Source: an uncultured Draconibacterium sp. (GTDB lineage Bacteria; Bacteroidota; Bacteroidia; Bacteroidales; Prolixibacteraceae). Taken from it: a stretch of DNA of 64,000 bases. The position numbers were made by a program, and so were the translations under genes. Below the pieces are notes generated by a model. That model saw only the letters and a program-made list of their open reading frames with translations. It was not told the DNA's origin and did no database searches. Below, piece after piece: positions 19,157 to 35,923 of this stretch (position 1 is the first letter of the stretch; each line of letters starts with the position of its first letter). The stretch covers positions 563,001 through 627,000 of the forward strand of contig NZ_OY776411.1 in the NCBI RefSeq assembly GCF_963675585.1, read 5' to 3'.

Positions 19157-22100
19157 TTATACAAAGTCTTTTAGTAAGCACAAATAAGCATCTTCCAGGT
19201 GCGGCGAAACATTTACTGCATCAGCTGCCGGTTTTTCTTTCGCCAGACAACGTACCTTAATGTTTTCGCCATCGCGCATGTGGTGAACAATCATTTGTTT
19301 ATTTGCAAAATCGTCGAATTCTTTTGCCGGAATCGAGAATTGCCAAACAAAGTTATTACCCATATTTACCATATCGGTAGGAGTACCAAAATATTTTAGA
19401 TTACCTCTGTTGATTACAGCTACCTGGTTACAAGAGCTCGAAATATCTTCAATAATATGGGTTGAGAAAATTACTATACGTTCCCGGCTTAGTTCTACCA
19501 GTAAATTCCTGAAACGTATTCTTTCCCGAGGATCAAGTCCGGCAGTAGGTTCATCAACCACCAGAATTCGTGGCAGATTGAGCAGAATCTGGGCAATCCC
19601 GATCCGTTGTTTCATACCTCCAGAGAATGCACCGATTTTATCAGTCCGGCGTTCCCACATGTGTACATTTTTCAAAACATATTCCAGTCTTTCCTCACGT
19701 ATTTTTGTATCCTTAATACCTTTTAAAATTGCCTGGTAATCGAGAAACTCCCATGCTGACATATTTTCGTAAGTACCAAAAGCCTGAGGCAAATAACCAA
19801 TTAAGCCCTGCAATTCCTCGCGGTATTTTTGCGTGTCTAAGCCGTTAATCCAGATTTTACCATAGCTCTGTTCCAGAATTCCGGTAATAATACGCATCAT
19901 GGTTGATTTACCTGCACCGTTCGGACCAAGCAAACCAAACATTCCGGTTTTAATTTCGAGCGAAACGCCGTTAAGTGCGCGGAATGGTTTTTTGCGTTTC
20001 CCAATGATAGGAATCTGGCGAACCATTGTAAAATAGGCTCTTCTGATGGCACCAAAACGTCCCTCAATTCGGGCTACATTCACATTTTTATTGTGAACAT
20101 ATTCAGCCGAACGATAGAAGGCCAGCAATAAAAACCAGATAATTCCGATAAAAATTACCATTCCCAGGTTGTCCCAGTTTCTGAAGAAAATAAACAGGAA
20201 CCCTGCCGGTACAAGCCAGAAAATAAGGTTATAAATCCATTTGTTTAACTTCAGATAAAATGCTTTACCACTTGCTTCATTTTTGTTAATCAGCACCTGA
20301 TTTAACGGTACACGCAACAAGAAAAGGAAGAAATAAACAAAGTGCGACAAAATCCATGTCCACAAATTATTATCGAGATAAATAAATGTGAAGTACACCA
20401 TAAAACCGAAGAGTGGGATTTGCCATGCCAGGTCGTAAAAGTCGCGTACTTTTTTGTAATCGCGGGTTAAACCGGCACGTTCACGAATTTTTATACCCGA
20501 CTTCCACTCGCGTACAAATCTGGAATCGCGATCGTAAACTTTAACCAGCTTGCGTATTTTAATGCTAATTGCCGCATTTTCATCAATTACTTTTTCGCTT
20601 GCCTGGCGTAAACTGGTCATGGTAAACGCTACCACTCCCGGAACCAAAATAATAAGCAACATGTAATCGAGTAACTGCCATACAAACGAATCAACTTCTA
20701 ACCAAATAAGAATGGCACCAACCACAAACACAACCAGCATTCCGGTTTTTAATCCCCAATGCAAGGATTTTATCCAGTTCAATGCATTCTCCATACCCGC
20801 ATATAATGTTGGTATAAAAATAAGTGTGAGTATTGTACTTAACGACAAACCACCGATAACGGTAATTGCAAACGGTGCACCAATTGCGCCAACATATTCG
20901 GCTTGTCCCATAGCAAGTGGAAACAAAGCTACGATGGTAGTTATTGCGGTAATCAAAATGGGTCGAACACGCGACAGCCCGGCTGTCATTAATGCCCGCG
21001 ATTTACGATAACCCCGTTTTCGCAGAATATTTGTAAAATCGATGAGAATAATTCCGTTGTTTACCACCACTCCAATAAGGATGATAAAACCCATTAAGGT
21101 ATTGGCGTTGAACAAGCTGTTGCCGGTAAAAATTAGTGCCAGGAATGAACCAATTGCCGCCAGTGGAATGGAAAACATTAAAACAAACGGCGTTGAAACC
21201 GACTCGAAAACCGAAGCCAGAATCATTAAAATAAGAATAAATGCCGCTGCAATTAAAAATTTAAATTCAGCATACTGATCTTCTTCATGTATCACTTCCA
21301 CCGCAATTCCCGAAGGCAATTTATAGGCTCCTATTATTTCATCTATTTCCAAACGGTATGCTTCCAACAGGTCTTTCGACGACTCCGCCTCATCCACAAA
21401 ACGATAAGTAAGTTCGATCTGTTTTTCCTGGTTTACCCGTGTTATACTTGCCATTCCGTTGGAGTAAACCAAATCGGAAATATCCTGCAAATCATGCGTA
21501 CCACCCTGACTGTTGCTAATTTGTAATCTTCTTAAATCCTCAATCCCTTTTTCTGTGTCTTCTTCTTCAACACCATCAGGAAGCTTTTCTTTAATTACAA
21601 TTTCGTATTCTTCGGTACCTTGTTTAAAGTTAACACCCGAAGTAAACTGCCGTGTAAACGTTCCAAGTTCAGAAGTAATATTGTTTAGCGATATTCCGTA
21701 CTCGGTAAGTAAGAGCTGGTTAAAATAAAGATGAACTTCGGGGCGATTATTTGCCACACTAATATTTGCACGGTTTATCGATTCCAGATCTTCAATGTAG
21801 TACAACAAATCTTCGGCAACCCCTTTCATTACCTCGAAGTTTTCGCCTTTAATAACAACCCGTTCCTGGTTACTACCAATTCCCATAAACTGGCTAAAAC
21901 CGGCAGTTCCGGAACGACCGCCGCCACCACCGCCACCACGGAAACTGGCACTTGAAGTAGGTGCTTCGAGGCTTATTTCAGCCTGCGATATATTTTTTAC
22001 ACGATCTTCGACATCCTTTTTAATTTCTGCAATTGTACGGTCGTCAATGTCCTTGTAATCTTCGTCAAGAATAAAAGTAAGAATGGCTTCTTCTTCTTCA

Positions 22101-23881
22101 ATCTTCGAAATCAGGTCTTTCTTTTCCTTAATTTCTCCCAAACGATTTTCCACCTCGGCAACTACCTGGTCGGTAGCTTCAAGTGTTGAACCGGTTGGCA
22201 TAGTAACATACACCGAAAATTGCTCTTCTTCAACTTCACTAAGATTGTTGACACTTATAGCCAACACGATAAATACAGTTAAAAAGAAAAGTACAATGGC
22301 CCCAATTACGGTTCGCGCCGGGGTTCGCATACTTGCTTTTAACAGCAAAATGTAGATCTGAATGATTCGGTTATTTGTTGTTACTTTCTCGTAAAATATA
22401 TTGTGTTGCTGTTTGCCGCGTAATAACAAATGGGCAGCCATTGGAATAAGTAACAGTGCTACAAACAGCGAAACCACCAGTGTTGAAATAATTGAAACAC
22501 CAACGTGATTACCCAACAATTTCACCATATAATCGGTTGAAAAAACAAAGGGAAGGAAAACGGTAATTGTAGTTAAAGTAGCAGCTACAATCGATCGCCA
22601 CACTTCCTGAGTTCCCAATGTAACCGACTTTTCAGCACTCATCCCGCTCCCCGAAAGCCGGTATATATTTTCGAGCACCACAACACTGTTGTCGAGCAAC
22701 ATTCCAATGGCCAGCACCAAGCCAACCAATGTTAAACTGTTAATGGAAATATTAAAGGCGTAAAACAGGTTAAAAGCTGTGAAAACCGAAATCGGAATTG
22801 CCAGAGCGATAAACGATACAATGCGGAAGTTTTTTAGAAACATCCACAAAACAAAAATAGCCAGCAAACCCCCAACCAGGGCTAAATCCATAATCTGGTC
22901 GATGTTTTTTTCCATTGTTTCGGCCAGGTTGGTTTGCACCACAATTTCAACATCTTTTGCTGCCAGTTTTTTGTTTAGCCTCAAAATCTCGTCTTGCACA
23001 CGGTGCGAAAGTTCAATTAAATTGGCTTGCGAATCGCTAACAAGCAACATCGAAACCGCATCTAAACCATTAATCCTACTTATTGATGTTTCTTCTTTAA
23101 CGCCAAAAAATACATCGGCAACATCTTTCAGGTAGATCGGTCCTTCGGCAACTACTATGTTTTCAATGTCAGAAACCTTTTCGTATTCGGCAGTTACGTG
23201 TACAAAATACTGTTTATTCGAATCGTGCAGATAACCGGCAAAGGTTCTATTGCGTGAATTTCCGGATATGGCACTCTGAATTTGCGAAGGAGTAATACCA
23301 TAAGCTTTGCAGGCAGCATCGTTGTAATTCACTTCAATCGATCGTTCTTTTCCTCCAAAAACACTAACCGATGCAACTCCATCAACATTTTCAAACTCCG
23401 CAGCAATCTCCTGATCCACAATATTCCGAACCCTGTCGACACCTCCGCTTCCCCGAATCTGAAGTTCCATAAACTGATTGGTAAGCTGATCGAGATCCAC
23501 TTTATTAACGGTAACAATAAAGTTGTCGTCGAGGTCTGAAGCAATCAGATCGATTTTCTCCTGTAGCTTTAAAAAAGTATATTTAAAATTAACGTTCTGC
23601 TTAAAATTAACCTGAATAGAAGCCGAGCGATTGTTAATATACGACTCCATACTTTCAATCCCTTCCATGGTACTGATCGCTCCTTCAACTGGAATTACAG
23701 CCTGATTTTCCATGTAAGTCGGATCGACTTCAATGCGCGACTGAATCTGAACAAAGAGCATCGGAAGCTCGGCATTTGGCATTAGTTCAACCGGCAGCCG
23801 TTTGTACGAAATGTAACCGAGCATGGTTAGCCCGAGAAACAGCATACTGATGAATATTTTTCTTTCTATGATAAACTTCAT
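19157..23881 (-). CDS. RND efflux pump fused to a complete ABC ATPase (1574 aa)
   Basis: One uninterrupted frame. Residues 1 to about 1030 are an RND permease: TM1 at 10-27, porter domains, TM4 with GMLLDNSVVVLEN (essential Asp near 395), a second porter half with a Gly-rich loop near 646-656, and TM7-12 (GVVVNNGIILIDF). Residues about 1040-1260 add roughly six membrane helices and a basic cytoplasmic stretch. Residues about 1285-1574 are an ABC ATPase with Walker A GLLGPNGAGKST (near 1316), signature FSGGMKQRIGIAQ (near 1418), Walker B ILVVDEPTAGLD (near 1437) and H-loop STHIIED, all intact. The ATPase resembles the separate one at 33223-34116. It probably links proton-driven RND transport with an ATP-driven step, together with the permease that follows. 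A normal RND protein is about 1040 residues. Confidence 0.92.
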   Translation of the reverse strand: MKFIIERKIFISMLFLGLTMLGYISYKRLPVELMPNAELPMLFVQIQSRIEVDPTYMENQAVIPVEGAISTMEGIESMESYINNRSASIQVNFKQNVNFKYTFLKLQEKIDLIASDLDDNFIVTVNKVDLDQLTNQFMELQIRGSGGVDRVRNIVDQEIAAEFENVDGVASVSVFGGKERSIEVNYNDAACKAYGITPSQIQSAISGNSRNRTFAGYLHDSNKQYFVHVTAEYEKVSDIENIVVAEGPIYLKDVADVFFGVKEETSISRINGLDAVSMLLVSDSQANLIELSHRVQDEILRLNKKLAAKDVEIVVQTNLAETMEKNIDQIMDLALVGGLLAIFVLWMFLKNFRIVSFIALAIPISVFTAFNLFYAFNISINSLTLVGLVLAIGMLLDNSVVVLENIYRLSGSGMSAEKSVTLGTQEVWRSIVAATLTTITVFLPFVFSTDYMVKLLGNHVGVSIISTLVVSLFVALLLIPMAAHLLLRGKQQHNIFYEKVTTNNRIIQIYILLLKASMRTPARTVIGAIVLFFLTVFIVLAISVNNLSEVEEEQFSVYVTMPTGSTLEATDQVVAEVENRLGEIKEKKDLISKIEEEEAILTFILDEDYKDIDDRTIAEIKKDVEDRVKNISQAEISLEAPTSSASFRGGGGGGGRSGTAGFSQFMGIGSNQERVVIKGENFEVMKGVAEDLLYYIEDLESINRANISVANNRPEVHLYFNQLLLTEYGISLNNITSELGTFTRQFTSGVNFKQGTEEYEIVIKEKLPDGVEEEDTEKGIEDLRRLQISNSQGGTHDLQDISDLVYSNGMASITRVNQEKQIELTYRFVDEAESSKDLLEAYRLEIDEIIGAYKLPSGIAVEVIHEEDQYAEFKFLIAAAFILILMILASVFESVSTPFVLMFSIPLAAIGSFLALIFTGNSLFNANTLMGFIILIGVVVNNGIILIDFTNILRKRGYRKSRALMTAGLSRVRPILITAITTIVALFPLAMGQAEYVGAIGAPFAITVIGGLSLSTILTLIFIPTLYAGMENALNWIKSLHWGLKTGMLVVFVVGAILIWLEVDSFVWQLLDYMLLIILVPGVVAFTMTSLRQASEKVIDENAAISIKIRKLVKVYDRDSRFVREWKSGIKIRERAGLTRDYKKVRDFYDLAWQIPLFGFMVYFTFIYLDNNLWTWILSHFVYFFLFLLRVPLNQVLINKNEASGKAFYLKLNKWIYNLIFWLVPAGFLFIFFRNWDNLGMVIFIGIIWFLLLAFYRSAEYVHNKNVNVARIEGRFGAIRRAYFTMVRQIPIIGKRKKPFRALNGVSLEIKTGMFGLLGPNGAGKSTMMRIITGILEQSYGKIWINGLDTQKYREELQGLIGYLPQAFGTYENMSAWEFLDYQAILKGIKDTKIREERLEYVLKNVHMWERRTDKIGAFSGGMKQRIGIAQILLNLPRILVVDEPTAGLDPRERIRFRNLLVELSRERIVIFSTHIIEDISSSCNQVAVINRGNLKYFGTPTDMVNMGNNFVWQFSIPAKEFDDFANKQMIVHHMRDGENIKVRCLAKEKPAADAVNVSPHLEDAYLCLLKDFV

Positions 23882-27206: not shown

Positions 27207-28265
27207 TTACAAAATGACTTTAACTTTTGAATTATCGCGAAGCGTTTCAAAACCTTTAATAATCAAACGATCGTTGGCTTTTAAACCTTCAATAATTTCG
27301 ATTTGATCCTGATTCGAAATACCGGTTGTAATTCTGCGATCTTCGGCAGCACTGTTTCTACCCACAACAAATACATATTTGCCACGCGAACCCGACATAA
27401 TAATGTCTTTTGGAATAACAATGGTGCTGTCTTTTTGAGCGGTAACAATATCGGCTTTTACAAACATACCCGGACGAAGTTTTAGTTCGGGATTATCGAT
27501 TTGCAATTTTCCTTCAAAAGTACGTGTCTCGCTGCTAATTACCGGCGACAATTCAGTAACATGTCCGGTTAGTGTGTCCTCGGTAAGCGTATAACTGGTA
27601 ACAACAACTTCTTGTCCTAACTTAATTTCAGAAATATTTTTCTCGGGCAGGTTAAATTCCACATACATTTCTTCGTAGCTCATTAAACCAACCATGGTTT
27701 GTCCCGAAGCTACACGAACACCTTCGGTATAGTAAGGTAAATCAACAATTACACCCGAAAAAGGTGCTACAACCTGCATTTTTGCCATTTGAATTTCGGC
27801 TCCTTCGTAAGCGTATTTTGCATCAATTTTAGAAACTTCGGAGTTACGAAGTTCGCGCAAAGTCACTCCCCCTTTTTCGTAAAGCGATTTTTGTTTTTCG
27901 TATTCCTGTTCCGATATCTCAAGATTTAATTTCCGGGATTCGATGTTAATTCCGTTTACATATTCTTCGTCTTCCAGTTTAATAATTACCTGTCCGGCCT
28001 GAACCCGATCGCCCAGTTGAAATTTACGGCCTGTTTTTGGATTTACCTGCAACTTGTAGTCGCCCGAAATTTCGGAAGCAAGTTCGGTTTCGGAGCGTGC
28101 CTTGGCTGTTCCGGTTGTATTTATAAATTGCTGAATACTTTGCAGTTTCACATTTTCTACTGAAACAGGAACTGCCAAATCGGTAGTTTCAGACGATTGC
28201 TGATTGTTGCATGAAAATGCCACGGCTACAACAGCAACAAGGATAAGTAATTTTATATTTTTCAT
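27207..28265 (-). CDS. RND periplasmic adaptor (membrane-fusion protein) lipoprotein
   Basis: This 352-residue lipoprotein (AVVAVAFSC) has the usual adaptor order: a beta-barrel/lipoyl half-motif around QFINTTGTAKARSETELASEISG, GDRVQAGQVIIKLEDEEYVNGI, a short helical hairpin (residues about 100-150), VVAPFSGVIVDLPYYTEGVRVASGQTM (in two pieces the second lipoyl half) and the membrane-proximal end IVIPKDIIMSGSRGKYVFVV. It bridges the RND pump and TolC in the periplasm. It sits between the TolC and RND genes, 21 bp after the former. No second adaptor is present, so one adaptor must serve both RND proteins. Confidence 0.94.
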   Translation of the reverse strand: MKNIKLLILVAVVAVAFSCNNQQSSETTDLAVPVSVENVKLQSIQQFINTTGTAKARSETELASEISGDYKLQVNPKTGRKFQLGDRVQAGQVIIKLEDEEYVNGINIESRKLNLEISEQEYEKQKSLYEKGGVTLRELRNSEVSKIDAKYAYEGAEIQMAKMQVVAPFSGVIVDLPYYTEGVRVASGQTMVGLMSYEEMYVEFNLPEKNISEIKLGQEVVVTSYTLTEDTLTGHVTELSPVISSETRTFEGKLQIDNPELKLRPGMFVKADIVTAQKDSTIVIPKDIIMSGSRGKYVFVVGRNSAAEDRRITTGISNQDQIEIIEGLKANDRLIIKGFETLRDNSKVKVIL

Positions 28266-28286: not shown

Positions 28287-29783
28287 TTATTTCTGTTCGT
28301 TTAGGTAAAGTTCAGCCGGAATAATTTCTTCGCCGGTTTCGAAGTTGTATAAGGATTGAATTTTAAGGTTCAATAATTCTATTTTGTAATTGATAAGCGC
28401 CTGGCTATACGAAATCTTTTTTTCGGAAAGCTGTGTTTGGTAAAGGTTTAAGTCCATACCCGTTAAATCACCGTTTTCGTATCTCTCCAAATTAATTTCA
28501 TAGGTAAGCTGCGCGTTTCGTTCGTTTTGTTTGGCAATATCAATCTGATTTAGCTGGTTTTGCAAATTGCGATACACCTGTCTGATGTCAACGATGATTT
28601 GCTTTTTCTCTTCCGACAGGTTCAATTCCTGCGAACGAATTGAGGCTTCGGCAGCAGCAATCCGTGCCTTTTTTTCACCCCAGTCGAAAATAGGAATATT
28701 AAAACTTAATGAAACCGACGGACTTTTTGTTGGATTGTCGTAGATTTGATTCAACTGGTAATTATCGCCGGTTATACCAAACCTCAGGTTCATATCGCCT
28801 TTAAATTCGTTTAACGATTTGGTTTGAATTAAATCAAACTGGCTGGTTTCCACATCAATTTCGCGTTGACGAAGTTCCATTCTTGAATTTAGTCCGTTCT
28901 CGATGGCTTTGTCCAAATCAACTGCAACCGGATTGGCAGTAATGTCAGCCAAAATCATAATATCCTCGAATAAATCCATTCCCAGATAAAGCTTCAACTG
29001 ATCTTTGTTGTTTTCAAAATTTACCTCGGCGTCCTGCAAAGTCGATTTCGATGTGGCAAGGTTTAACTCGGCCTGGTACTGTTCTTCTTTAGCAGCCAAT
29101 CCGGCCTGAACCTTGTTTACAATAATATCGTAACTCTTTTGTGTATTAGCCAGTTCTTCTTTTGCAATACTCAAATTCATTTGCGACATATAAACATTGT
29201 AGAAAAACTGTGTAACATTTCGCTCAAGATTGAGGCGCTGCATGGCATAATTCAGGTTAGCGTTCTCAAGATTCAGCTCCAGTGTTTTAAGTTCGAGTTT
29301 TAAGCGGTTGTATGTAAAAAGAGGTTGGTTTAAATTCAGATACAAATTATTAAAAAACACTTCACTTTCAATGTCTGTAGAAGTTGAAGCATTGCTCGAC
29401 CACCCAAATTCATTGGTTAACGAAATTGTTCCATCTGTGACTAAAATGGGTTGCTCAACCCGAAACAAGGTACTGGTTTCAAAATTTTCATTGGTATACC
29501 ACTCCGAAACCCTTGTGTCGAAACGTCTTTGTTTACTGTAATTAACAGGATTTACCTCGAGTGAGAAACGTGATTTTAAAGCAGCACGCTGGGCTTCCAG
29601 GTTTTTCTGATAACGCTCTAAATTTAAAAGCGACTGCTGAAGATCGGGACTACCGGTTTCGGCAATACTTAGCGCTTTTGCAAGGGTCAGGGCTTCCTGT
29701 GCCTGAACTGTGTAGGCTCCCAGTCCCAGCATAAATACAAGGAGAAAAAGCACTTGCAATTGTTTGGTTTTTGTTCTTTTCAT
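28287..29783 (-). CDS. TolC-family outer-membrane efflux protein
   Basis: The 498-residue protein has a Sec signal (LGLGAYTVQAQ) and two repeats of the outer-membrane-factor pattern: a long helical hairpin in each half (ALSIAETGSPDLQQSLLNLER; QQ-rich second half with RIAAAEASIRSQELNLSEEKK) and beta strands such as SVSLSFNIPIFDWGEKKARI. It should form the trimeric exit duct for the RND and perhaps ABC modules of the operon. The ATG at 29783 is taken; the TTG nine codons earlier only adds a polar stretch before the signal peptide. Confidence 0.93.
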   Translation of the reverse strand: MKRTKTKQLQVLFLLVFMLGLGAYTVQAQEALTLAKALSIAETGSPDLQQSLLNLERYQKNLEAQRAALKSRFSLEVNPVNYSKQRRFDTRVSEWYTNENFETSTLFRVEQPILVTDGTISLTNEFGWSSNASTSTDIESEVFFNNLYLNLNQPLFTYNRLKLELKTLELNLENANLNYAMQRLNLERNVTQFFYNVYMSQMNLSIAKEELANTQKSYDIIVNKVQAGLAAKEEQYQAELNLATSKSTLQDAEVNFENNKDQLKLYLGMDLFEDIMILADITANPVAVDLDKAIENGLNSRMELRQREIDVETSQFDLIQTKSLNEFKGDMNLRFGITGDNYQLNQIYDNPTKSPSVSLSFNIPIFDWGEKKARIAAAEASIRSQELNLSEEKKQIIVDIRQVYRNLQNQLNQIDIAKQNERNAQLTYEINLERYENGDLTGMDLNLYQTQLSEKKISYSQALINYKIELLNLKIQSLYNFETGEEIIPAELYLNEQK

Positions 29784-29864
29784 GTTTTTATTATTGTATA
29801 TTTTTTGCAACTCTTACCTGTCAGAAGGCAGGTGGGTACTGTATTTCTAAAAATTGATTTTGTT

Positions 29865-33222: not shown

Positions 33223-34116
33223 TTAGGCGTTTGACCACTGGTTAAGTTTATTCTCCATAAAATGCACATAAGCGTGCTCAAGATTGGGTGCAATTTGTTT
33301 TCCCTGGTAACCGTTAATTTCTGCTGCTACCACTTGCACTTCCCATCCTCCGTCAATCGGGATAGTAGAAATTACCGGATACTTCTCGTTAATTTCCATG
33401 TACTCTTGTTCAGTTGCTTCAATCTGCCAAACATTTCCTTCGGCTTCTTTAATCAACTGCTCGGGCGAACCGGAAAAAGCCAGTTTCCCGGTATTTAGCA
33501 AGGCCATATTATCGCAGGTACTCGAAATATCGCCAACAATATGTGTTGAAAGGATAATAATTACATCGCGTGTACTGATTGTCGACAGCAGATTTCGAAA
33601 ACGAATCCGCTCTTCCGGATCAAGACCCGTTGTTGGCTCATCGACAATAATAATTTTTGGATCGTTTATTAATGCCTGCGCAATGCCAAGCCTCCGTTTC
33701 ATACCACCCGAAAGTTTATTTGCATTTCTGTCGCGTGCTTCAAACAGGCCGACTTCCTCGAGCATCTGCTCAACGGCAGTACGTCGCTGAGCACTGTTTT
33801 TCATACCCGACAAACGAGCTGCGTAATCCAAAAACTCATAGGTTTTCAACTTCGAAAAAAAGCTAAAATCCTGTGGCAGGTAGCCCAGCATCGACCTTAT
33901 TTCGCGGCGGTTTTTCGACAGTTCCAGCTCGTTAAAATACACTTTGCCACTACTTGGTTTCATAAGCGTTACCAAAATTCGCATGAGTGTAGATTTACCG
34001 GCACCATTTGGTCCCAAAAGACCGAACATTCCGTTTGGAATTTCAAGGTTTAAATTATTAACGGCATAACTGCCTCCCTTGTAAACTTTGTTAAGATTTT
34101 CTATTTTAATATGCAC
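33223..34116 (-). CDS. ABC transporter ATP-binding protein (first gene of the RND/ABC operon)
   Basis: The 297-residue ATPase has Walker A GPNGAGKST at 35-43, Q-loop LPQDFSF at 80-86, signature LSGGMKRRLGIAQ at 135-147, Walker B KIIIVDEPTTGLDP at 154-167 and an H-loop STHIVGDISS. The C-terminal tail PNLEHAYVHFM has a counterpart (PHLEDAYLCLL) in the ATPase part of the RND::ABC fusion, so the two are paralogues. The start codon is GTG; no in-frame ATG is near. It energises the ABC-2 permease that follows after 10 bp, and perhaps the whole hybrid machine. Confidence 0.93.
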   Translation of the reverse strand: MHIKIENLNKVYKGGSYAVNNLNLEIPNGMFGLLGPNGAGKSTLMRILVTLMKPSSGKVYFNELELSKNRREIRSMLGYLPQDFSFFSKLKTYEFLDYAARLSGMKNSAQRRTAVEQMLEEVGLFEARDRNANKLSGGMKRRLGIAQALINDPKIIIVDEPTTGLDPEERIRFRNLLSTISTRDVIIILSTHIVGDISSTCDNMALLNTGKLAFSGSPEQLIKEAEGNVWQIEATEQEYMEINEKYPVISTIPIDGGWEVQVVAAEINGYQGKQIAPNLEHAYVHFMENKLNQWSNA

Positions 34117-34415: not shown

Positions 34416-35000
34416 TTATAATTTTGCGATGTATTTATGATCTTTAAACTGATCTGTTAATACAATTTCATACTCCCCTTTTTCAAGCTTCGAAAGATCA
34501 ACACATTTCTGAATGGTAAGATCTTTTCCAAGTTTAACTCCATCAATGTGATTTCCGTTTTGATAAACGTTTAAATAAACCTGCGATTTTGGACAGTTAA
34601 AAAACGATACGTTAAGTTTTTTACCATTCATACAAAAATAGGGTTCGTATAAATAGAACACATCTCCTACTGTTATCATTTCATTTTTTACGGCTAAACT
34701 GCGGCTAACACTTCTGTTCCCGAAATTCACACACACGCAGTATGTTCCGTCTCCCATTTCCGAAAAATCAAAGATTTTCTTGTAATCACTGTGTCGTTCT
34801 TTAGTCCTTTTAAAATACACAATCTCTCCATTCGCATTTGTCAAAGTAATTTCCAGAGGCGAAGCTTCTGACGATTCAAATGCGACCAAAGCTTTGTCGT
34901 TTTCTACGTGTACTACATTCATTTTGGGGAATTCGGTGGCAAACCCTATTGCTGCAATAAAGAATGCCAGGCTTGTTAAAACCCATTTTCTTGTTTTCAT
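34416..35000 (-). CDS. Secreted beta-sandwich protein of unknown function, paralogue 1
   Basis: The 194-residue product has a Sec signal (LAFFIAAIGFA) and a predicted all-beta mature part. It shares its layout with the neighbour at 35333-35923: EFPKMNVVHVENDKALVAFE against EKPKMSVVPLTADRAIVSIQ, NGEIVYFKRT against NGDLVYYKQS, YKKIFDF..GDGTYCV against YQKVFDF..ENGSYTM, and LSKLEKGEYEIVLT against LSRLTKGKYDVVLS. The pattern is like DUF3244 or the Ig-like sorting domains of Bacteroidota, but I do not recognise a function. Three or four cysteines not present in the other copy may form a disulfide. The ATG at 35000 is chosen over the TTG at 35030. It has its own terminator. Confidence 0.75.
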   Translation of the reverse strand: MKTRKWVLTSLAFFIAAIGFATEFPKMNVVHVENDKALVAFESSEASPLEITLTNANGEIVYFKRTKERHSDYKKIFDFSEMGDGTYCVCVNFGNRSVSRSLAVKNEMITVGDVFYLYEPYFCMNGKKLNVSFFNCPKSQVYLNVYQNGNHIDGVKLGKDLTIQKCVDLSKLEKGEYEIVLTDQFKDHKYIAKL

Positions 35001-35332
35001 TTTTTTGTTGTTTAATGTTTTCAATGGCAACCGTTAAAACAGCATTGTAAAAAATCTGTGGCTTAATCAGAATTTTTAATGTGTTCAACAATTTAAAATT
35101 TAACTGTTCTCTAATTAACTGACATCAATTTAGCTATGACGTTACATTAAACGGGTATCTTATCGATGAACTGCACAATAACGTAGACAAACACAAAAAA
35201 AAAGGTAACCCAAACTATTTACCTTCTCCAAAGTACCATTCACTCAACCGAACGAGCCGTTTGTACATAAAAAAAAGGCCGCCATCTGTTTCTGCACAGA
35301 TAACGGCCTTTTAAACCAATAACTTTTGTAAC
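35001..35332. other. Intergenic space between the two secreted paralogues
   Basis: Apart from the terminator at 35273-35312 I see only AT-rich leader DNA. The minus-strand leader of the downstream gene contains an A-rich run directly before the ATG, as is usual for Bacteroidota ribosome entry. No further gene is visible. Confidence 0.5.
35273..35312 (-). terminator. Terminator after the second secreted paralogue
   Basis: AAAAGGCCG at 35273-35281 pairs with CGGCCTTTT at 35304-35312, with an inner ATCTG/CAGAT stem. On the minus strand it ends in eight T. It lies about 20 nt after the stop at 35333. Confidence 0.88.
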
Positions 35333-35923
35333 CTATTTTTCCAAACTATAAGTAAATTCATTATTATATGAACTAAGAACAACATCGTATTTGCCTTTTG
35401 TAAGACGAGACAAATCATAACCTGAAGTTAGATTAAACTCTTTTCCCAGTTTTGATTCGTAAACCAAACCTTTTTCATCATAGATGGCCAGGTTGTAGCT
35501 TTCTTCGTCAAAATTCAAATAAGACAGTTTCAATACACCTTCTGTGTAGTTAAAGAACGGATCAAAACGTAATTTTGACTCTCCGATCTCGATACCGTTA
35601 GATGCAACTGAAAAATCTTTTGACAAACGTGTGTCATTTACTTTTAAGTGCATAGTATAACTACCATTTTCAAGCGCTTTAAAATCAAACACTTTCTGAT
35701 AGTTATTTAATGGCTTAGTAGATTGTTTATAATATACTAAGTCTCCATTTTCTGCATGAATGCTTAACTCAAACAAAGCTGCATTGTCGTTTTGAATTGA
35801 CACAATTGCTCTGTCGGCTGTTAAGGGTACAACACTCATTTTTGGCTTCTCCACTGCAGTTGCAATTGCTACAATCGCTACCGCTAGTACTGTCGATAAT
35901 AATTTAATTGTTTTCATAACCAT
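35333..35923 (-). CDS. Secreted beta-sandwich protein of unknown function, paralogue 2
   Basis: The 196-residue product has a signal peptide (LSTVLAVAIVAIATA) and a beta-rich mature region that is paralogous to 34416-35000 (shared PKMxVV, NGDLVYYKQS, YQKVFDFKALENGSY and LSRLTKGKYDVVLSS). The copies diverge over most other positions and each has its own terminator, so they are an old tandem duplication under separate control. An alternative ATG exists two codons downstream at 35917 and gives the more usual start MKTIKLL. It could be an envelope stress or adhesion protein, but nothing shows this. Confidence 0.75.
   Translation of the reverse strand: MVMKTIKLLSTVLAVAIVAIATAVEKPKMSVVPLTADRAIVSIQNDNAALFELSIHAENGDLVYYKQSTKPLNNYQKVFDFKALENGSYTMHLKVNDTRLSKDFSVASNGIEIGESKLRFDPFFNYTEGVLKLSYLNFDEESYNLAIYDEKGLVYESKLGKEFNLTSGYDLSRLTKGKYDVVLSSYNNEFTYSLEK

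Follow-up and report, generated by a model that had tools for sequence, protein, structure and literature searches.

The class of a tripartite exporter is given by the engine in its inner membrane, which is an ABC, an RND or an MFS transporter (PMC8277102). Mixed RND trimers have a precedent in the MdtB2C1 heterotrimer (PMC7015380), and in E. coli inner-membrane suppliers feed TolC-dependent pumps, a close interaction between supplier and pump being only postulated (PMC4822809). Here, we describe a locus from an uncultured Draconibacterium sp. (family Prolixibacteraceae, phylum Bacteroidota) that encodes an RND permease and an ABC ATPase in a single chain within a cluster of seven genes. It lies in a window of 64,000 nucleotides, the whole stretch of DNA that was analysed (NCBI RefSeq assembly GCF_963675585.1, contig NZ_OY776411.1, positions 563,001 to 627,000), and all coordinates below are positions in that window.

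The RND part of the fusion resembles HAE-type permeases such as AcrB and MdtB/MdtC in its full-length ACR_tran match and in the Asp of TM4 and the Arg and Thr of TM11. Unlike AcrB and MdtB/MdtC, the fusion has about 545 more residues, comprising six helices and an ABC ATPase, and it carries Asn at the positions of two AcrB residues that we take to be D408 (in TM4, as is D407) and K940 (in TM10). As in MdtABC, two RND genes adjoin one adaptor gene. The ATPase motifs and the predicted fold of the downstream permease recall ABC-2 type exporters (DrrA/GldA-like ATPases; NosFY, PmtCD); in contrast to these, the chain of the fusion starts with an RND pump, and between strands 1 and 2 its ATPase is predicted to hold four inserted helices that split it. 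Relatives of the cluster's 1115-aa protein presumably go by the name ABC permease / M1 aminopeptidase, and they share with it an ABC-2-like N-terminus and an M1-like part, adjoining an ATPase. Two such relatives, L086 and L092, both next to lone ATPases, keep the HExxH motif, whereas it is absent from the M1-like part in 28/28 cluster members (L187 being a fragment).

Like MacAB-TolC, the locus brings an ABC ATPase together with an adaptor and TolC in what would be a tripartite pump (PMC8277102); MacB, however, carries its ATPase N-terminal to its own permease, while the ATPase of the fusion is C-terminal to the RND part and the permease is a separate gene. Two-step efflux from cytoplasm to periplasm to the outside, with its postulated close interaction, also relates the function proposed below to the supplier transporters that cooperate with AcrAB-TolC (PMC4822809), yet those are separate single components and the fusion is a covalent ABC-RND joint.

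Searches of open-access full texts yielded no description of the RND-ABC fusion, the cluster or the split ATPase. Automatic database names of homologues already mention both halves. The parts are known; their joint architecture appears to be new.

Domain order of the fusion protein

The fusion is encoded on the minus strand by one uninterrupted frame of 1574 aa (19157-23881); the plus-strand translation of the same stretch is full of stops. Pfam ACR_tran matches residues 2-1028 at 551.8 bits (cut-off 28), which covers the full length of PF00873, ABC_tran matches residues 1303-1447 at 96.0 bits, and six hydrophobic peaks lie between the two matches. The first-pass annotation, which had described an RND permease and an ABC ATPase in one 1574-residue frame with about six extra membrane helices, is confirmed in both respects, and a motif scan bears out the intact ATPase motifs that it had reported: Walker A (GPNGAGKS, residues 1319-1326), signature (FSGGMKQ, about 1419-1425), Walker B (ILVVDEP, with Asp-Glu at 1443-1444) and H-loop (STH, with His 1475). 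By sequence, the closest solved relative of the RND part is MdtB, and ABCA4 is the first ABC entry of the list. The fusion falls below the NCBIfam cut-offs of the named multidrug RND subfamilies (RND_permease_2, 432 bits versus 1250; TIGR00915, 295 versus 940), as it does for the best ABC models, GldA (175.9 versus 402.6) and DrrA (167.4 versus 312.5).

The first-pass annotation had read the extra helices as either a purpose-built linker or an ABC membrane domain that had degenerated, ahead of the ATPase; four of the six instead sit inside the predicted ATPase fold. The split rests on one AF2 model of residues 1031-1574 (pTM 0.59; pLDDT about 73-83 around the first strand) together with the A-loop motif. 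In the model, two helices precede a first strand (Table 1), and helices 115-138, 142-174, 178-205 and 209-234 (model numbering) lie between this strand and strand 270-280. A structure comparison of the whole model returned ATPase rows throughout; for example, 1vpl aligned to it over 234/238 residues, with 1vpl residue 2 falling on model residue 75. The A-loop Tyr is invariant in 53/53 aligned rows, the window included, and the A-loop motif lies 180-282 residues ahead of Walker A in 238 of the 240 listed homologues and at most 60 residues ahead in none of them. The predicted order in the chain is two helices, ATPase strand 1 with the A-loop Tyr, four helices within the ATPase, and the remaining ATPase, such that the nucleotide-binding domain would not be contiguous and would hold an insert of about 183 residues between predicted strands 1 and 2.

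Table 1. Parts of the fusion and genes of the surrounding cluster, as positions in the window
Feature	Position	Strand	Basis
ABC-2 type permease, 239 aa	18436..19155	-	Predicted ABC-2 fold; ATG one base after the stop of the fusion
Fusion: remaining ABC ATPase (residues 1300-1574 + stop)	19157..19984	-	ABC_tran; motif scan; invariant columns
Fusion: predicted insert in ATPase, amphipathic helices + four membrane helices (residues 1117-1299)	19985..20533	-	Model; distance from A-loop to Walker A
Fusion: predicted first beta strand of ABC ATPase with A-loop tyrosine (residues 1107-1116)	20534..20563	-	Strand 77-86 of model; 1vpl; invariant Tyr
Fusion: two membrane helices behind RND domain (about residues 1042-1095)	20597..20758	-	Helices 12-32 and 36-65 of model; hydrophobic peaks
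Fusion: RND permease domain (residues 1-1030)	20792..23881	-	ACR_tran; MdtB closest solved relative by sequence; TM4 Asp, TM11 Arg and Thr kept
Second RND permease, 1038 aa	24015..27131	-	ACR_tran 738.1 bits; conserved neighbour
RND periplasmic adaptor (MFP)	27207..28265	-	TIGR01730 200.6 bits (cut-off 94.9)
TolC-type outer-membrane channel (start codon uncertain)	28287..29810	-	Pfam OEP 148 bits
ABC-2-like permease (N-terminal) + M1-peptidase-like part without HExxH + Golvesin_C end, 1115 aa	29865..33212	-	Golvesin_C 63.1 bits
Stand-alone ABC ATPase, 297 aa, first gene of cluster	33223..34116	-	Motifs intact; 43% identical to ATPase of fusion

The seven-gene cluster

The genes run in the order second ATPase, ABC-2-like/M1-like protein, TolC (where present), adaptor, second RND, fusion and ABC-2 permease. 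The gene behind the fusion had been named an ABC-2 permease at first reading, and its product is indeed predicted to be a six-helix ABC-2 membrane domain with a fold like NosY and PmtCD. Two things go beyond what the first-pass annotation had described: the split in the ATPase, and a cluster in which the ATPase, the ABC-2-like domain and the RND each have a second copy and to which an adaptor and TolC belong. In the 1115-aa protein, Golvesin_C scores over the Pfam cut-off, and ABC2_membrane_2 and Peptidase_M1 score below theirs; the protein probably joins an ABC-2-like permease to a peptidase that is conserved although dead. Kinship by sequence between the two ABC-2 membrane domains of the cluster was considered and is not supported, since hhalign does not link their profiles (probability 0.5%, E 0.11). 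Upstream of the cluster, two small predicted secreted proteins of similar sequence are encoded at 34416-35030 and 35333-35923.

In most loci whose surroundings were compared, the adaptor, the second RND and the second ATPase accompany the fusion. Among a first 24 fusion loci, 17 have the full seven-gene order and six are cut by contig ends. The exception is L066 (G101:C30), where the fusion and the permease are present, the second RND does not adjoin, and other genes run up to the contig end. We also compared 13 loci from the phyla of L081 (Latescibacterota), L107 (a Gemmatimonadetes genome) and L121 (an Acidobacteria genome). The second RND and the adaptor each adjoin the fusion in 12 of them (L195 is cut), and the second ATPase is present in 11 (L186 and L195 are cut). 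A frame matching the permease profile follows the fusion in 13/13, at 25 bits or more in 10; the three weaker frames score 20-24 bits and have 5-6 hydrophobic peaks. The 11 loci of the phylum of L121 (L185-L193, L196 and L197), of which L186 starts at a contig end, showed no TolC gene next to the cluster. Across an even sample of the phylum of the window, the permease profile was found in the same 6/392 genomes as the linker, plus one weak partial match; the adjoining permease, whose recurrence had been in question at first reading, thus recurs with the fusion.

A complete cluster shows parity of parts: ATPases, ABC-2-like membrane domains and RNDs number two each, with a single adaptor. Together they look like the components of an ABC exporter and of a pair of RNDs.

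Distribution and descent

The linker (residues 1031-1300) has matches in 126/140 genomes of the window's family, its own genome included, in 21/23 genera and in 98/103 high-quality genomes. Of the 131 linker matches in the family, 117 lie in open frames of at least 1,454 aa; four of the 14 shorter ones were inspected (L062, L073, L074 and L075), and all are cut by a contig end. The first-pass annotation had raised the prospect that the two modules are separate genes in every close relative, and these fused-length frames are the reverse of that. One genome of the window's genus (G062) has two full-length fusion frames, of 1578 and 1577 aa, on contigs C7 and C6. With matches in 6/392 genomes of the phylum sample, the window included, the fusion does recur in Bacteroidota, as that annotation had left to be seen; it is widespread in a single bacterial family and scattered outside that family. 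A 1432-aa frame in genome G474 (L072) was set aside as not the fusion, its ATPase match lying at residues 1029-1323 and its sequence having no match to the RND references.

Close database homologues are named Prolixibacteraceae, Draconibacterium and Maribellus, and among the best 120 of 3773 homologues, 120/120 carry both Pfam domains. Loci from the genome scan include two Bacteroidales bins, an uncultured Proteiniphilum, Parabacteroides massiliensis, a Carboxylicivirga bin and the Latescibacterota contig L081. The last has one 1443-aa frame, cut at both ends, that is 32% (RND part) and 60% (ATPase part) identical to that of the window. A database search with its last 544 residues (E <= 0.001) gave 4525 homologues, the best 120 of which all have both domains; among these 120 are the names KSB1, Calditrichaeota, Gemmatimonadetes/Gemmatimonadota, Acidobacteria/Acidobacteriota and Latescibacteria.

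Whole-genome searches found matches in 19/247 genomes of the phylum of L121, seven of them at E 1e-25 or better, and all 11 that were fetched, weak ones among them, are fusions. In the phylum of L107, 2/200 genomes matched, one strongly and the other through the Walker A part in a 365-aa frame; in that of L081, 2/16 matched. In several of the genome searches, no more than 3 to 13 first-look candidates were scored for each genome, which makes their counts too low and their absences soft. In the genome of L081 itself, a single-sequence search gave no match and a profile search found the fusion. Five genomes of other phyla gave no match, which is uninformative on absence; a plasmid search also gave none. 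Many of the named records are metagenome bins in which single phylum labels may be wrong, but a general labelling error is unlikely because of the number of records named for other phyla. The fusion occurs in bacteria assigned to at least five phyla. An assembly or frame error is ruled out, with a residual probability that we consider negligible, by the linker in 126/140 family genomes and by database proteins named for several phyla. The RND-ABC fusion is real.

Two ATPase trees were built by a quick method from short searches, with SH-aLRT support only and with loci thinned out (9 in the first tree, 14 in the second). In the first, 31 fusion ATPases lie on one side of a branch (SH-aLRT 99) versus 21 cluster ATPases and 12 others; in the second, 26 lie on one side (SH-aLRT 100) versus 18 cluster ATPases and 60 others. 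The cluster ATPases are on another branch in both (SH-aLRT 87 and 89). The trees fit a single origin of the fusion, without showing or dating such an origin. The lone ATPase with the highest identity to that of the fusion among those listed (49%) is encoded on a Candidatus Heimdallarchaeota chromosome (L082, 10001-10825).

Conserved residues and proposed mechanism

The motif scan finds Walker A, the signature, the Walker B Glu and the H-loop kept in 40/40 fusions, and the catalytic motifs are kept in 29/29 stand-alone ATPases of the cluster; L055 and L061 have a changed residue before the H-loop His, and the Walker A of L061 reads GANGAGKS. The signature is SGGMxR in 29/29 cluster ATPases versus [FY]SGGM[KR]Q in the fusion, which suggests that the two are differentiated halves. 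The Gln also occurs in 11/12 other lone ATPases, a weak control given that these loci were chosen with a pattern containing that Gln.

In the RND part, the proton-site Asp of TM4 (AcrB D407) is kept in all 39 fusions that cover the position (L195 is cut there), and TM11 has Thr in 40/40 and Arg in 39/40 (Cys in L185). The AcrB D408 and K940 positions are Asn in every covered row of both RND proteins; the second RND has an extra Asp beside the TM10 Asn in 27/38 rows, and its TM11 Thr is missing from a single row (L054). We considered whether this loss could prove that ATP has replaced protons, and rejected it: among six unfused RNDs of the same genome that were looked at, one, L005, matches the fusion in all six letters compared. 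Because the Asn changes are also found outside the fusion, they do not show a takeover by ATP. Given these same changes, proton coupling of the RND pair is not assured.

We propose that the cluster is a two-stage relay, a reading to which we give an even chance, in which an ATP-driven stage hands its substrate to an RND stage. The first stage would carry the substrate across the inner membrane, and the second would then push it onward through the adaptor and TolC. Judging from gene content alone, one asymmetric exporter would arise if the stand-alone ATPase pairs with that of the fusion and the ABC-2 membrane domains pair with each other. Both RND proteins may sit in a mixed trimer, like MdtB and MdtC. 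By keeping the two machines together at a shared adaptor, the covalent joint could prevent loss of substrate on the way from one to the other, and the four-helix insert may fasten the ATPase in the membrane alongside the RND trimer. As the TM4 Asp and the TM11 Arg and Thr are retained, protons would still drive the RND stage. With a permease partner for the ATPase of the fusion encoded by the neighbouring gene, an ABC exporter attached to an RND trimer is also the economical reading. In favour of the relay are the parity of parts, the conserved gene order, the intact motifs of both ATPases with their differing signatures and separate branches, the occurrence of the permease in the same genomes as the linker, and the precedents of MdtB2C1 and of the supplier transporters. 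Against it count the unlinked profiles of the two ABC-2 membrane domains, the ABC-2 label of the 1115-aa protein scoring below the cut-off, the Asn at the D408 and K940 positions, and the loci of the phylum of L121 in which TolC was not found beside the cluster. As for the substrate, our guess is an amphiphile or an envelope lipid drawn from the membrane.

The main rival to the relay, which we regard as unlikely, is an ATP-powered RND pump, with the conformational cycle of the RND trimer driven or gated directly by ATP hydrolysis in the split ATPase. Two helices tie the ATPase covalently to the RND part, the ATPase has a predicted membrane insert of its own, and the Asn at both AcrB relay residues points the same way; however, L005 has the same Asn residues without being fused, the two ABC-2-like membrane domains of the cluster would give the ATPases an ordinary job, and we know of no RND in contact with an ATPase. 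A dual-energy transporter, in which ATP at the insert-clamped ATPase powers or gates the RND rotary pump and ATP and the proton gradient are coupled in one complex, seems to us unlikely.

Alternatively, the joint may be a mere scaffold, with the ABC exporter and the RND pump acting on different substrates and fused for co-assembly or dosage. Fusions often do no more than fix stoichiometry, and the order of the cluster varies, the first two genes being divergent in L185 and L187. We nevertheless hold a scaffold to be distinctly unlikely, as the fusion ATPases group together in the trees, with a constant joint, insert and neighbours, and a single adaptor gene serves both parts. The loss of the two relay residues would also agree with an envelope machine run by ATP, whose RND part would have ceased to pump protons and would serve as a conduit in the periplasm through which the ABC part pushes lipids or lipoproteins; so would the presumably periplasmic M1-like part, which lacks the HExxH that L086 and L092 keep and looks as if turned into a binding or coupling part. 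A conduit is hard to square with the near-invariant TM4 Asp and TM11 Arg and Thr, which are difficult to explain without a proton site, and we consider it very improbable.

In summary, the fusion joins two of the engines by which tripartite exporters are classed in one chain, and genomes assigned to several phyla keep the joint. The fusion makes testable a question posed in PMC4822809, namely whether a TolC-dependent pump has to be in physical contact with the inner-membrane suppliers that feed it. An ATPase broken by membrane helices just behind its A-loop would be a new way of coupling an ATPase to a membrane machine. Finally, a dual-energy transporter, if true, would add a fourth class to the tripartite pumps as grouped by energy source, present across several bacterial phyla.
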